Below are positions 15,123 through 20,123 of a stretch of DNA of 20,123 nt, in pieces. The DNA lies in the IMG/VR virus record IMGVR_UViG_3300021076_000644, positions 1 through 20,123 of that record. One strand, given 5' to 3'. The stretch is from a virus. The position numbers and the translations under genes were made by a program. The notes under the pieces are model-generated. The model did not search any database. It saw nothing but the letters and a program-made list of their open reading frames with translations, and was not told the DNA's origin. Each line of letters begins with the position of its first letter. Within the stretch, counting starts at the first letter, position 1.

Positions 15123-16549
15123 CAGAGATACCCTCTTGTCTGCGATGCTGTGGTTTCGGTCGGGGGCACCTGCAAGCCGAGCCCGCAGATTCCTGTGTCG
15201 GCGGCCAGGTCAGCCAGAGCTTTTGCCCAGAATGCATCGGCGTGGGCGAAAAGCTTCTTCTTCACTCCACCGGCGACGGCCGTATCCACTTCGATCCGGG
15301 GAGCGTCGAAGGTGACGCCCGAGGCTGTAGCCTGGCGCTTGATGGCCTGCAACTCGGCGCGGATCTGCGGGTCATAAGGGATCCGGCTGCGATGTTGCTC
15401 CATCCTTTTCTTGATCCGGATGGCTAGGTCTGTCTTCATCCGGACGCCATTGTCGTTCGATCCCGAAAAGCTGACGCCCATCAGCCGGCCTTCGTTCTCC
15501 AGGTTCAGCAGGTCATATAAGCCGACGCCCATGCCGGTCGAATCGATGGCCGACCTGGTTGTCATCCTGACAAGTGGGTTCAGGCGCTTCGCCTGGTCGG
15601 GGAAGCTCATCGCGTGCAGCTTGATGATGGCGCGGGTCCAGGCTACGTCGCCGATCTGCTCATCCAGCCAGGCGCAAGTGGCGTCGTGAACCCGGCCGAC
15701 ATCGATCCCCATGTTCAGCCGGCCGCGCGGGTGAAAGTCCGGAGGCAGGTCGATGGTTGCGCCGGCATCTTCGCAAGCCGTAATCAGATCCAGAGCCAGC
15801 CAGGCCCCGGTGGACTTGAGGAAGACACAGCAGAACTCCTGATTCCAGGTATCCTCGTCGTTCAGGCCGAGGCGCATCCCCTCAATATCGATTGGGCAGC
15901 CCTCGGCTACCGCCCGGTAGACATCCACCCAATGGCCGCTCCAACCATTCCGCTTGACGGGCAATTGCGCCGGCGCGACTCCCATCTCAAGCCCGAGGTC
16001 GCGGGCGATATCGAAGAACTTGCCCTGTTCTCCGTTGGGCGTGGAGAGCACTTCCAGGGAGTTTCCCAGCGCCACCTGGCGAAAGACAGCCGCAAAGATC
16101 GCATAGCTGTCTTCGTGGTGGGCGAATTCGTCGAGAACCGCGTCGCCCGGATAACCGCGGGCCGTGCGCGGGTTGGCCGGCAGAGCAATGATGCGGCTGC
16201 CGTTCGGAAAGGTGATCTTGCTCTGAATGGCCTCGATCCGGCCAATCGCGTCCACGAAATCCTCGTTGGCGATCATCTGCGCAGTGCCGCCCATAAGCTG
16301 GCAGAGCTTGGCGCAGGTCTCGACGAACTCGACAGATTGAGCCTTGGAGGCCGACAAGACAGTCGTCGTCCGCCCTGGGATCCGCATCGAGATCTCGACC
16401 CGGCGATAGGCGGTGGCGAACGAGTACCCGATACGGGCCGACTTCACGGCGCATTTGAAGCGCGTGTCATCATCAATCCAGCGCTGCTGGTACGGCCGCA
16501 TTTGCAGCACTGCAGGCAGCTTGATCTGGTGGTCCAGAACCTCAATCAT
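15122..16549 (-). CDS. Large terminase subunit (Mu gp28-like)
   Basis: 475 residues. The ATPase domain has a variant Walker A, KSARIGYS (36-43), the form seen in Mu gp28-type terminases (KS-R-x-GYS). Its Walker B is AVLDEFAHHED (137-147) with D140 and E141, and the coupling motif is STPNG (169-173). The nuclease domain has NMGIDVGRVHDA (279-290) with D283 and AIDSTGMGVGLYDLL (334-348) with D336, as expected for an RNase H-like fold. The enzyme packs DNA through the portal and cuts it. In Mu-like phages cutting occurs in host DNA flanking the integrated copy. The gene overlaps the small subunit gene by 8 bases and the portal gene by TGATG. Confidence 0.94.
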   Translation of the reverse strand: MIEVLDHQIKLPAVLQMRPYQQRWIDDDTRFKCAVKSARIGYSFATAYRRVEISMRIPGRTTTVLSASKAQSVEFVETCAKLCQLMGGTAQMIANEDFVDAIGRIEAIQSKITFPNGSRIIALPANPRTARGYPGDAVLDEFAHHEDSYAIFAAVFRQVALGNSLEVLSTPNGEQGKFFDIARDLGLEMGVAPAQLPVKRNGWSGHWVDVYRAVAEGCPIDIEGMRLGLNDEDTWNQEFCCVFLKSTGAWLALDLITACEDAGATIDLPPDFHPRGRLNMGIDVGRVHDATCAWLDEQIGDVAWTRAIIKLHAMSFPDQAKRLNPLVRMTTRSAIDSTGMGVGLYDLLNLENEGRLMGVSFSGSNDNGVRMKTDLAIRIKKRMEQHRSRIPYDPQIRAELQAIKRQATASGVTFDAPRIEVDTAVAGGVKKKLFAHADAFWAKALADLAADTGICGLGLQVPPTETTASQTRGYL

Positions 16550-17246
16550 GGGCGATCACCAGAGGGGGCAACCCAAAGGTGCGCTCGCGCAACAGGTTGA
16601 TATCGTCCAGCGAGAACTGGCCGGTGCCCTTCTTGGCGGCCTCTTTGGTTGCATTGTCCACGTTCTCGCGAGCTGTCCTTTCGCGCTCTTCAAGCAACGT
16701 GATCCGCCGCTGGTCCACCTCGACGCGCTTGGCTTGCAGCTCCACCCGCTGCATGCGGCTCATGGCCAGGGTCAGGTCCTTCAGTCCATCGGCGAACCCG
16801 GTCTTGTCGTCTTTCCCGTGGGTCTGAATCAGATTGAAGACCTGGTCGCGGAGGGCATTGATCACGGCATTGTTGGCGCCGTCGAGATCGTTGCCGGCGA
16901 AGGCGGAGGCGAATTCGCGCGCCTGGGCGCTTTCGACCAGCACCCGCTTCCGCGCCTGGCTGACCCGCAGATCGAACCAGCGGTGCAGGCTGGACTTCGG
17001 AAGCCGCATCAAAGGGAACTGCTCCAGCACCCTCAGGTCCAGCTTTTCCCAGTCCACAAAGCCGCCCCCATCGTCCGCCCACTGGGCGCTGTATGGTCGG
17101 GAGGACTGCTCCTCGATCTCCACCCAGGTGCGGCCCCAGTCATACAGCTTCTCGATCGCCGCGCGCACGCTCTGCGGCAGAAGGTCGATCTTGAGCGGCT
17201 GGTGTGCCTTGCGCTCTTCTCCGGTTTTAGGTCTGGGCTTGGTCAT
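16542..17246 (-). CDS. Small terminase subunit, DUF3486 family (Mu gp27-like)
   Basis: 234 residues. The N-terminus has the DUF3486 signature: KIDLLPQSVRAAIEKL (19-34), then GRTWVEIEEQ, and LPKSSLHRWFDLRVSQARKR (82-101), which together form a DNA-binding helix-turn-helix region. The C-terminal half is mostly helical, with a coiled stretch from about 150 to 210. DUF3486 proteins lie directly before the large terminase in Mu-like phages and are taken to be the small subunit that recognises the packaging site. A three-base gap separates it from the upstream wHTH gene. A Trp/Asp/Gly insertion at about 50-70 (SAQWADDGGGFVDWEKLD) seems specific to this protein. Confidence 0.88.
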   Translation of the reverse strand: MTKPRPKTGEERKAHQPLKIDLLPQSVRAAIEKLYDWGRTWVEIEEQSSRPYSAQWADDGGGFVDWEKLDLRVLEQFPLMRLPKSSLHRWFDLRVSQARKRVLVESAQAREFASAFAGNDLDGANNAVINALRDQVFNLIQTHGKDDKTGFADGLKDLTLAMSRMQRVELQAKRVEVDQRRITLLEERERTARENVDNATKEAAKKGTGQFSLDDINLLRERTFGLPPLVIAHD

Positions 17247-17249
17247 GGT

Positions 17250-17570
17250 CTAGTCAAGCAAAACGTCGTCGTTGCTCTTGCGCCGTCCTACCAGGCCGAG
17301 GCCTTTGGCGGTCAGAGCGATCTCAGTGATCACTTTTCGGCCGGTCATCTCATCGGTCCGTTGATGGAAGTCGAGGTATTCCAGGATCTGCAGATCCTGC
17401 AGCAACGTCAGGACCTGGTCGCGCCCCACGCTCTGGCCCAGCTCCTGCATCATGGCGAAAACCTCAAAGTCGTCCATGCGCGAGAGCTGCGCCTCGTGCC
17501 CTTGGCGTACCAACTTCAAGATGATGCCGCGCCGCCGCCTCACCAACACAAGTTCACGCTCTCCGCTCAT
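17250..17570 (-). CDS. Small winged-helix protein in the Mu gp26 position
   Basis: 106 residues starting at an ATG with GGGGAG eight bases upstream and overlapping the preceding gene by 17 bases. The layout is a basic N-terminal helix (LVRRRRGIILKLV), a second helix (FEVFAMMQELG), a recognition-helix-like segment (VGRDQVLTLLQDLQILEYLD, about 48-67) and a beta wing ending ITEIALTAKGLGLVGRR. This matches the VpaChn25_0724-type family found between DUF2730 and DUF3486 genes in Mu-like phages. The fold suggests DNA binding, perhaps in packaging or late control. The family match is from memory of the pattern, not a search. Confidence 0.65.
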   Translation of the reverse strand: MSGERELVLVRRRRGIILKLVRQGHEAQLSRMDDFEVFAMMQELGQSVGRDQVLTLLQDLQILEYLDFHQRTDEMTGRKVITEIALTAKGLGLVGRRKSNDDVLLD

Positions 17571-18105
17571 CGCCTACTCTCCCCTCGTCATGGCGCTCGC
17601 TCGCAATGCCGCTCAGGCGCGCATGTATGCCCTGGACTGAAACGGCCACCTTATCCATCACCGCATCCTGCTTGTCGAGCCGCTCGCAGATTGAGCCCAG
17701 TTCCCGGCCCGCGTAGATTGCCAGCCGTCTCACCTCTTCCGCCTGCCTGCCGCCCTGGTCGGCCAACTTGGTAAAGGCGTCGGCCTGACGCTCGCCGGCC
17801 TGCGCCTGCCGCTGCACGCCATCCACGACCGAGCTAAATGTGGTCTGGATCGTGTCGTTCATCCGCGACATGAAACGGCCCAGAAACATCAACAGCAACA
17901 ACGCAAGGAACGGCCATGGCCCCCATTGCGCCAAAAGCGTGAACCCAGCCTGGGGCTGCCGTTGCAACAGCTCGAAGGCGGCCAGAATCACCGCGGCGCC
18001 CCCGGCCGAGGAAAGCGCAACCTTGATATGCGACACCCAACCGTTCCGAAAGCCGAGGGCCACCTGCGCGTGCGGAATCTCAGAACCCAATCCCAATGTC
18101 GTCAC
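17554..18105 (-). CDS. Membrane protein with C-terminal coiled coil (Mu gp25 position)
   Basis: 183 residues, overlapping the upstream gene by ATGA. Two hydrophobic segments lie at about 27-46 (IKVALSSAGGAAVILAAF) and 62-80 (GPWPFLALLLLMFLG). They are followed by a long amphipathic region (85-165) rich in Gln, Glu, Ala and Arg, with heptad-like spacing and no Pro. The C-terminal 20 residues are highly charged. DUF2730 proteins with one membrane helix and a coiled coil occupy this slot in Mu-like phages. This protein is longer and has an extra membrane segment. It may be a structural or spanin-like lysis helper or a packaging-zone membrane protein. I do not assign a function. Confidence 0.55.
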   Translation of the reverse strand: MTTLGLGSEIPHAQVALGFRNGWVSHIKVALSSAGGAAVILAAFELLQRQPQAGFTLLAQWGPWPFLALLLLMFLGRFMSRMNDTIQTTFSSVVDGVQRQAQAGERQADAFTKLADQGGRQAEEVRRLAIYAGRELGSICERLDKQDAVMDKVAVSVQGIHARLSGIASERHDEGRVGDERRA

Positions 18106-18647
18106 CGGACCTGGACCCCCTTGAGGGCGTCGGGAACGTCCCCTAAGGTATCCATCCCCGTTTTTTGCGCAATGGAGGCAGCCGTGACTTCGTGAATCAT
18201 CGCGGCGACGGCAGGTGAGGTCTGATTGATGGTGGTCGCGACATGCGGCGCGAGCGCCCCAAAGAGCTGCGCGACCTCAGCGGCCGTCGATGCGGATATA
18301 TGAAGGCTCGCGCCGGCGGAGGAAAGCAGAGCGGGAGCCGCCGCATATCCAATACTGGTGGCCGCCTGCTCCGCGTCCTGCACAGCCTGTGCCGATTTTC
18401 CGGAGCGCAGATCCGTGCTGACCTGGGCGACACCCTGCAGCGCTGTCAGCAGCTCCGCCTGGTGCCGGTTCGTCTTTGCAGCCAGACCGCAGATCGACAA
18501 GCCAATTCCGAGCACGGTCAGAGCATCCACCGGCTCCAGCTTTCCATAGCAGACGCCGGCCACCGCCGCCGCCATCACCACCCCGCCGCCGAAGATGGTT
18601 TTCTTACCCTGCCACCAGGTCACCACTGCCGCCCAAAACTTCGCCAT
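18102..18647 (-). CDS. Holin-like small membrane protein (first gene of the late operon)
   Basis: 181 residues with GGAGG six bases before the ATG. The N-terminus is WW-QGKK, a short basic stretch ahead of a membrane segment (17-35, TIFGGGVVMAAAVAGVCYG). A second hydrophobic stretch follows at 41-57 (DALTVLGIGLSICGLAA). The pair of helices linked by a short acidic turn resembles small phage holins. The remaining 120 residues are Ala/Ser/Thr rich and probably helical (AQAVQDAEQAATSIG, STAAEVAQLFGALAP), far longer than in a simple holin. No endolysin is seen in the window, so a lysis role is a guess from topology and position. It directly overlaps the next membrane gene. Confidence 0.5.
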   Translation of the reverse strand: MAKFWAAVVTWWQGKKTIFGGGVVMAAAVAGVCYGKLEPVDALTVLGIGLSICGLAAKTNRHQAELLTALQGVAQVSTDLRSGKSAQAVQDAEQAATSIGYAAAPALLSSAGASLHISASTAAEVAQLFGALAPHVATTINQTSPAVAAMIHEVTAASIAQKTGMDTLGDVPDALKGVQVR

Positions 18648-18788: not shown

Positions 18789-18810
18789 AAAACGCCAATT
18801 TGGCGGTTTT
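18789..18810. terminator. Bidirectional Rho-independent terminator
   Basis: A stem CGCCA and TGGCG with a 3-base loop is followed by TTTT on the minus strand and, after one extra G, by TTTT on the plus strand. It lies 23 bases beyond the PLD gene stop codon. It isolates the accessory leader from the late operon, whose first gene begins 142 bases further on. The late promoter is presumably in that gap, but no clear -10/-35 pair stood out. Confidence 0.75.
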
Positions 18811-18832: not shown

Positions 18833-19462
18833 TCATTCCGGAGGCGCATCGGCGGCCGCCGGCGTCGCCTGTTTCGTCGCCCCGACATCCACCGCCTGGG
18901 CGACCGTCAGGTTGTTCGAGCGCCCCCACATTTCCGTGAATTGTTTCGAGAAGGCTCCCAGCGCCGCCAGATCGCTACTGAAGATAGCGGAGTTGTCTTG
19001 CCGGGATTCACCCTGCTCGCTGAAGTTGGCCGACCCGTCGCGCAGCATCCTGCTGTCAACTTCATAGCTCTTCAGGTGCATCAACACCTTCGAGTACTTC
19101 ACCCGGATCTCGACGCCAGGCAGCCCTATCAGGTCATGCAGCGGAATCCGCGCACATGTGACGTCGCTGCGGCATTCGGCCTGCAGCTCGCCGCGATCGA
19201 GGTAGATGCGGATCTTTACCCCGGCCTGAGCCCGGCTCACCAGCGACTGCACGATAGCGGCGTCGGTCAGTGAGAAGGCGGCCAGGTCGATCGTCCTGGT
19301 CGCGGAATCGAGCATCATCGTGTCAGCCTTTTCCAGGTTGACGCCAGGCGAGTAATAGGTGAGGGGGAAGCCAGCCTGCGCGTAAGCCTCCTGAACGCAT
19401 CCGGAGGCGTTGAAGCAAAGGATCAACAACATCCAAATCAAACCGCTCATGCGAATTCTCAT
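18833..19462 (-). CDS. Exported single-HKD phospholipase D-family protein (nuclease-like)
   Basis: 209 residues from the ATG at 19462, which overlaps the upstream stop as ATGA. An ORF reading 26 codons further upstream lies inside that gene. The N-terminus is an export signal: basic start, hydrophobic core (GLIWMLLILCFNASGC), then AYAQA. The ASGC could be a lipobox with C22, or cleavage may follow AQA. The catalytic motif is H129-x-K131-x4-D136 (HLKSYEVD), followed by GSANFS (143-148) and a downstream D/N segment. One HKD motif implies a homodimer, as in the small Nuc/BfiI-type enzymes; typical mature size fits. It is likely a periplasmic or membrane-anchored nuclease or phosphodiesterase. 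The last 25 residues are Ala/Pro rich. A bidirectional terminator follows. Confidence 0.8.
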   Translation of the reverse strand: MRIRMSGLIWMLLILCFNASGCVQEAYAQAGFPLTYYSPGVNLEKADTMMLDSATRTIDLAAFSLTDAAIVQSLVSRAQAGVKIRIYLDRGELQAECRSDVTCARIPLHDLIGLPGVEIRVKYSKVLMHLKSYEVDSRMLRDGSANFSEQGESRQDNSAIFSSDLAALGAFSKQFTEMWGRSNNLTVAQAVDVGATKQATPAAADAPPE

Positions 19463-19722
19463 AGGTCTACCGACTCCACCAGCGCCTGAATTTTGGCGAT
19501 CACCAGGCCCTCTGGAACAAAAAAAGGTTTGGAGGTGCATTGAATCGACAAGGTTTGGTCCGGCTCGCTATAGGTCCATTGAGCCGAATAGCCAAAGCCC
19601 GAAGCTGTGCCCGTATCCCCGCAAATGCTGGTGGCGTCGGCCTGCGCATGGATGCGCGCCCGCACCGCGAGGTACTTGCGCCGCGTGATCTTGCTGAACG
19701 AGATCGGCTTCATGGCTGCCAT
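19459..19722 (-). CDS. Small protein of unknown function upstream of the PLD gene
   Basis: 87 residues. GGGAG lies seven bases before the ATG at 19722, favouring that start over the Met three codons later. The protein opens with a basic stretch (MAAMKPISFSKITRRKYLAV). It continues with GFGYSAQWTYSEPDQTLSIQ and a C-terminal KPFFVPEGLVIAKIQALVES, suggesting a small alpha/beta or beta fold. It has two cysteines and no membrane segment or export signal. It shares an ATGA overlap with the PLD gene, so the two are translated together and may work together, for example as an immunity or partner protein. I do not recognise a named family. Confidence 0.55.
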   Translation of the reverse strand: MAAMKPISFSKITRRKYLAVRARIHAQADATSICGDTGTASGFGYSAQWTYSEPDQTLSIQCTSKPFFVPEGLVIAKIQALVESVDL

Positions 19723-19744
19723 CTATGTGCTCCCACATCTGCAA

Positions 19745-19785
19745 CGGCATCCGGCCCACTCTGGTTGAAGCTGGGCCGGATGCCG
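19745..19785. other. Long perfect hairpin between cold-shock gene and accessory cassette
   Basis: A perfect 14-bp stem (CGGCATCCGGCCCA and TGGGCCGGATGCCG) has a 13-base loop. It lies about 100 bases after the cold-shock stop codon and 23 bases before the next start. Only TT follows on the minus strand, so it is a poor Rho-independent terminator but a very stable RNA structure. Alternatively it could be a protein-binding palindrome. It is the strongest inverted repeat in the window. Confidence 0.7.
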
Positions 19786-19883
19786 GTGGGTTGGTTGAGT
19801 TCCCCAGGTAAGCGCCATTGCGGTTTGCTGTGCGGCGAAATATGGCAATCCGGGGTGGTACGCTCTGCGGCCAAAGGAGCGGC

Positions 19884-20123
19884 CTAGTTGATCCTGGTCA
19901 CCGCATCGGCCTGGGGCCCCTTGGCGCCCATCACAATGCCGAACTCGACGGCATCGCCCTCGTTGAGAGATTTGTACCCGGCCTCGTCAATCGCCGAGTA
20001 GTGAACGAAAACATCCGGCCCATCTTCGCGCCCAATAAATCCGTAACCCTTGACGCTGTTGAACCACTTCACCGTGCCCTTGAGTCTCTTGTCCACGTCC
20101 TCTTGCCTTTCTGTCGTCGGCAT
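19884..20123 (-). CDS. Cold-shock domain protein (CspA family)
   Basis: A single cold-shock domain with [20 protein letters not shown] containing the RNP1-like KGYGFIG, and VFVHYSAI as RNP2. It ends with a typical [10 protein letters not shown] segment. The full reading gives 79 residues from an ATG at the very edge of the window. A GTG at 20096 would give the family's usual 70 residues, with AAAGG about nine bases before it, and may be the true start. Such proteins bind single-stranded RNA or DNA and melt structure in mRNA. The gene shares strand with the phage genes but is separated from them by a strong hairpin. It may be phage-borne or a host gene at the edge. Confidence 0.9.

Follow-up and report, generated by a model that had tools for sequence, protein, structure and literature searches.

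A probable exported nuclease of the Nuc/NucT type in the late region of Mu-like Acidobacteriaceae phages

The phospholipase D (PLD) superfamily includes lipid hydrolases as well as nucleases. Phospholipase D and cardiolipin synthase carry two HKD motifs within one chain, and members of the Nuc/NucT branch have a signal sequence, are exported and are active as nucleases in the form of a homodimer. NucT of Helicobacter pylori, a membrane-associated nuclease of the periplasm, acts preferentially on single strands (PMC5714352). The phage-encoded PLD protein studied here shares with NucT (6EHI) the single-HKD PLD fold, and the N-terminal signal and periplasmic site of NucT find a parallel in the export proposed for the phage protein. 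In contrast to the phage gene, nucT is chromosomal; identity between the two proteins is only ~16-17%, and an invariant cysteine pair is the phage family's own. The NCBIfam equivalog for NucT (NF010492) gave 36.9 bits against a cut-off of 297. Nuc of plasmid pKM101 (1BYR/1BYS) has the same HxKx4Dx6GSxNF motif and, of all proteins with a solved structure, is the closest by sequence (E 7.5e-7), although identity in the fold alignment is ~21% and Nuc sits on an IncN plasmid. We know of neither a P87 gene, the small partner described below, nor a leader element beside Nuc.

Other described systems are further removed. Wolbachia phage WO also encodes a PLD domain protein, but it was found only with a PLD query of the L151 type, at 25% identity, and its gene lies beside a patatin gene near the tail genes instead of in a slot between lysis genes and the terminase small subunit gene (terS). 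Large phages of Klebsiella, Yersinia and Xanthomonas carry PF01223-type nuclease genes, one of them annotated as periplasmic, but the fold differs from that of PLD and the genes have another genome location. DrmC of the DISARM system contains a PLD-like domain; the NCBIfam DrmC model gave 24.9 bits against a cut-off of 133, and the PADLOC DrmC matches were weak. In the open-access literature, we found no direct precedent for a phage lysis module that includes a periplasmic nuclease.

Sequence, predicted fold and putative export of the PLD protein

The PLD gene was identified on a window of 20,123 bases, i.e. the whole stretch of DNA that was analysed, which is a complete virus record but only part of a phage genome (Table 1). 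The conserved start of the gene is the ATG at 19462, inside the TGA of the P87 gene. An open reading frame of 235 aa from 19540 was rejected as too long and not the conserved form. The sequence-only reading had described a complete HKD motif at residues 129-136 together with GSANFS; this numbering fits the 209-aa protein, and H129, K131, D136 and the GSANFS residues are retained in all 27 homologs. Each chain contains one PLD domain, a single PLDc_2 stretch, with one HKD motif instead of the two per chain of the phospholipase D and cardiolipin synthase type.

An AlphaFold model of the protein (pLDDT 81.6) had NucT (6ehi) as its top fold match (Foldseek E 3.8e-10), with Zucchini and Nuc (1byr, E 5.6e-8) close behind. 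By motif, sequence and relatedness of the predicted fold, the PLD protein is placed in the Nuc/NucT nuclease branch. Neither the PLD protein nor P87 of the window had a match among 50,697 phage records.

Table 1. Features of the locus, with positions in the window
Feature	Position	Strand	Remarks
terS, terminase small subunit (Mu gp27 family)	16542-17246	-	Phage_Mu_Gp27 E 4.1e-8
p106, 106-aa gene, conserved neighbour	17250-17570	-	synteny
tm183, membrane/coiled-coil protein, conserved neighbour	17554-18105	-	synteny
tm181, membrane protein, next gene after PLD, conserved neighbour	18102-18647	-	synteny
Inverted repeat, 10 nt, 1-nt spacing, 90% complementary	18789-18809	.	weak; not conserved in relatives
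PLD gene, 209 aa, single HKD motif, Nuc/NucT-type	18833-19462	-	PLDc_2 E 7.2e-16
GSANFS motif, residues 143-148	19019-19036	-	invariant, 27 homologs
Catalytic HKD motif H129-L-K131-xxxx-D136	19055-19078	-	invariant, 27 homologs
PLD leader, residues 1-30, MRIRMSGLIWMLLILCFNASGCVQEAYAQA, putative export signal with possible lipobox	19373-19462	-	type conserved in homologs
P87, 87 aa, overlaps PLD start by 4 nt	19459-19722	-	homologs in same place, most loci
Conserved element, single-stranded TACCTGGGGAACTCAACCAACC then hairpin	19736-19810	-	10 of 12 pairs covary; covariance-model score 53.3 bits
Hairpin arms of the upstream element	19742-19758 and 19772-19788	-	window

A hydrophobic N-terminal leader with a cysteine at the lipobox position and an AYA/Q site is conserved in most homologs, in agreement with the export signal or lipobox that had been read from the sequence. 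The PLD protein is thus probably exported, either as a lipoprotein or in a soluble periplasmic form. Cys97 and Cys103, invariant across the phage PLD family, would suit an oxidising compartment. At six loci (L006, L010, L037, L040, L041, L043), the PLD protein is extended at its N terminus by a transmembrane segment and a coiled-coil-like stretch, both of which precede a second hydrophobic segment; in these phages it may be an inner-membrane-anchored protein.

Downstream of the PLD gene, the bidirectional terminator proposed earlier was upheld only in so far as a weak inverted repeat exists. The terminator scan of this region did not report the repeat, and no consistent terminator follows the PLD gene in the relatives. 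Between PLD and the gene that follows it, a GGTAGTAC motif seemed to be shared, but it occurred in only 7 of the 34 loci.

A conserved late block with exchanged enzymes

The window contains Mu-like head genes, encoding a gp27-like terminase small subunit, a terminase large subunit (terL), Portal_Mu and Mu F. A scan of IMG/VR with the PLD protein retrieved 43 loci at 57-64% identity, and two more were obtained via P87. Almost all of these ~45 loci share the order P87, PLD, one or two membrane proteins, p106, terS, terL and portal. The window terminates before the endolysin region, and adjacency to lysis genes is known from relatives, in which endolysin genes lie upstream of the pair on the same strand (e.g. 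Phage_lysozyme, E 3e-36, in L002 and glucosaminidase, E 1e-32, in L036). The upstream region of L038 also contains a holin, and some relatives have weak Rz-like spanin candidates. A Mu transposase C domain was found in 10 of the 11 virus records tested, and the three genome contigs bearing the block were assigned to Acidobacteriaceae MAGs. The window is a Mu-like, temperate-type phage of the Acidobacteriaceae, a family of abundant soil and peat bacteria for which few phages have been described.

The prophage-type setting of the sequence-only reading is borne out by these data, and its gene pair, when sought in other phages, recurred in most of the related loci. Its description as an accessory cassette, in contrast, has to be given up: the pair belongs to a block of conserved synteny next to the packaging genes and downstream of the endolysin genes, and its recurrence there implies that the late/lysis region regularly includes it.

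Several further genes were seen around the block. A cold-shock protein gene lies upstream of P87-PLD on the same strand (window 19884-20123), and likewise in five related loci: L035 (4167-4430), L038 (2694-2912), L039, L045 (505-1029) and L046. Several phages, such as L003 (1481-2209), L013 (1919-2527) and L043 (2311-3075), have a second Mu F-like gene of shorter length upstream of their endolysin region. Downstream of the endolysin, L103 (2657-3490) and L133 encode a protein in which a lipoprotein-like domain is joined to a holin-like hydrophobic segment.

We used terS as the anchor for a second sample, so that phages were not chosen by their PLD gene; some bias remains, because the terS alignment was built from PLD-bearing phages. 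Among the 59 terS-anchored loci with at least 3 kb of upstream sequence, 39 had PLD and 43 had P87. Clustering by terS at 95% identity left 38 non-redundant phages. The slot was occupied by PLD in 25 of these, by an HNH-like protein in five and by a PF01223 protein in one; seven phages had none of these and no phage had two. Hence, the slot enzyme is not essential. The PF01223 protein (Serratia-type, Endonuclease_NS, a DNA/RNA non-specific endonuclease; E 1.7e-43) is that of L175/L186. A PF01223-type homolog in L185, with no terS block nearby, was left out of the slot count. The label HNH-like is based on a motif alone (GDHLISIEIGG...NLWPQP): profile searches of these proteins against Pfam, NCBIfam and PDB gave no meaningful match, and their plasmid-borne relatives are annotated as hypothetical. 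A firm member of a nuclease family other than PLD is therefore confined to the single phage L175/L186. Near the slot, we also noted an exported-looking protein of 545 aa (L128), Big2-like small proteins (among L128, L131 and L167) and, in L131, a 262-aa protein that appeared papain-like by eye and had no Pfam match.

The replacing genes carry leaders as well. The HNH-like leader of L101 resembles that of the PLD protein in L003 (score 128 versus a shuffled maximum of 42), and that of L194 resembles the PLD leader of L020 (64 versus 42); the leaders of L103, L133 and L176 are weakly or marginally similar to PLD leaders. At the DNA level, similarity between L101/L182 and the PLD phages runs through the end of P87 and the leader and stops where the leader ends. 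This breakpoint, together with the matching leaders, looks as if the catalytic part had been exchanged while the leader in front of it was kept.

The partner P87 and an upstream hairpin

The sequence-only reading had also proposed translational coupling of PLD to a cytoplasmic protein of 87 residues. The 4-nt overlap on which this depends is real: the stop codon of P87 and the start codon of PLD share an exact ATGA in 18 of the 24 distinct loci with both genes, which is more than chance and consistent with coupled translation. The predicted fold of P87 is small and alpha/beta (beta-alpha-beta4-alpha; model pLDDT 86). A fold search with this model returned nothing below E 1e-3, giving non-specific matches only and none to nuclease inhibitors, and P87 had no match in Pfam, PHROG or NCBIfam. 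A second small family with a P87-like pattern, P87b, occurs in tandem with P87 or replaces it, mostly in HNH-like or PF01223 phages (L024, 4410-4664; L103, 3510-3770; L175, 3270-3515).

A conserved element precedes the pair. Its hairpin of 12-16 bp with a CAACCA-type loop lies shortly before P87; in L037 and L040, it is the PLD gene that it precedes. Each of the 23 copies examined folds into the hairpin, and the stems score at least 32, whereas shuffled sequences reach no more than 29. Among 16 aligned copies, both sides had changed in 10 of the 12 stem pairs, and pairing was kept though the stem sequences differ. The covariance model matched the window and more than 40 other loci, several of which are copies of one phage; other copies lie, for instance, at 4467-4530 in L002 and 4619-4682 in L012. 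The element is also present in phages with an HNH-like protein or without a nuclease, and L194, retrieved by a 17-mer of the element alone, again has P87 followed by an HNH-like gene. An exact match of the 17-mer in L188 proved to be unrelated coding sequence. Several P87-bearing loci (e.g. L129) have no copy, and the element is thus not universal.

The element had no match in Rfam above the gathering score, and an exact 16-mer of it occurred in none of the 298 Acidobacteria genomes. On host chromosomes, the covariance model gave weak matches and no convincing copy; the strongest match was to an ordinary hairpin that follows an unrelated gene. The covarying hairpin is, in our view, a new candidate for a regulatory element and is restricted to these phages. 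As RNA, it might regulate translation or transcription; as DNA, it might be a site of binding or recombination.

Origin and function of the slot enzyme

More distant PLD relatives occur in ~26 of the 298 genomes of the host order, in ordinary chromosomal contexts outside any phage, and many of them have lipoprotein-like leaders. In the tree, the main group of phage PLD proteins has strong support (100/99), and L151, L152 and L158 form a second phage clade apart from it; a single phage clade was weakly rejected (AU p 0.043). The simplest reading of these relationships, and a proposal as to direction, is that PLD was captured from hosts, perhaps twice.

From sequence, predicted fold and slot exchange, we infer that the PLD protein is an exported Nuc/NucT-type nuclease, and likewise its secretion, nuclease activity and late timing. 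We consider it likely that such an exported nuclease occupies a dedicated late slot. In the proposed mechanism, Mu-like Acidobacteriaceae phages have a fixed slot between their lysis genes and their packaging genes; the nuclease fills this slot and would be translated together with P87 from a message bearing the conserved hairpin leader. Its site of action would be extracytoplasmic and its timing late: at lysis, it would cut nucleic acid both in the periplasm and in the surroundings of the cell. Candidate substrates are host DNA released with the virions and DNA injected by a competitor. Clearing of DNA at lysis is a tentative choice of biological target, and blocking of incoming DNA a somewhat less probable one. 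More tentatively than the nuclease itself, we further propose that the catalytic domain of the slot (PLD, HNH-like or Serratia-type) is exchanged behind a retained leader, and that a new phage-specific RNA or DNA hairpin governs the operon, possibly recognised by P87 or another phage factor.

The late-lysis nuclease is ranked as the most probable role, and superinfection exclusion is its main rival. According to the latter, a nuclease from the lysogen or infected cell destroys competing phage or plasmid DNA as it crosses the periplasm. The export-type leader, the kinship to Nuc and NucT and the Mu-like, transposase-bearing phage all favour exclusion, and differing nucleases in a single slot would fit an arms race. 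However, the gene lies among late lysis and packaging genes and not beside a repressor, and the channels through which many phages inject protect their DNA from periplasmic nucleases (PMC10975011). We therefore consider exclusion possible, at a probability clearly below that of the nuclease in its late slot. Less probable still is that PLD is a moron, i.e. a captured host gene that serves lysogenic conversion, such as nutrient salvage from environmental DNA, without a role in the phage cycle. The chromosomal relatives in Acidobacteria and the two phage clades, with capture that may have occurred twice, point in this direction, but the high prevalence, fixed place, fixed overlap and common leader element are unusual for a moron, which makes this reading rather unlikely.

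The sequence-only reading had offered P87 as an inhibitor or immunity factor, which would make PLD and P87 a toxin-immunity or enzyme-inhibitor pair. The conserved overlap, the small cytoplasmic partner that would be made first and a mild association between the two genes (Fisher p 0.04) are in line with such a pair, in which the partner should never occur alone. Yet P87 is present without any recognised nuclease in five of the 38 phages and with an HNH-like protein in others, PLD occurs without P87 in three of the 38, and P87 is missing beside all 20 chromosomal PLD relatives (20/20). Together with the lack of any fold match to nuclease inhibitors, this makes a PLD-specific inhibitor improbable. 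P87 may instead have a more general role in the operon, regulation included. Least probable of all, and in our view very unlikely, is a phospholipase that acts on the envelope during lysis and aids or replaces spanins. Although the gene is near endolysin genes, has a possible lipobox and belongs to a superfamily in which some proteins cleave lipids, its nearest relatives are nucleases, weak Rz-like spanin candidates are present in some relatives, and the same slot elsewhere holds a PF01223 nuclease or an HNH-like protein. This swap argues against lipid cleavage, and the earlier suggestion of an action on host envelope lipids is accordingly disfavoured. If unrelated nucleases share one slot, what they have in common should be an extracytoplasmic nuclease function.

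Within what was searchable, the gene family itself is known, and its phage setting, with the exchange of enzymes and the leader element, appears new. Extracytoplasmic nuclease activity is not usually counted as a lysis function. The replacement by unrelated nucleases at a fixed place provides indirect evidence that such activity is useful in the phage cycle.
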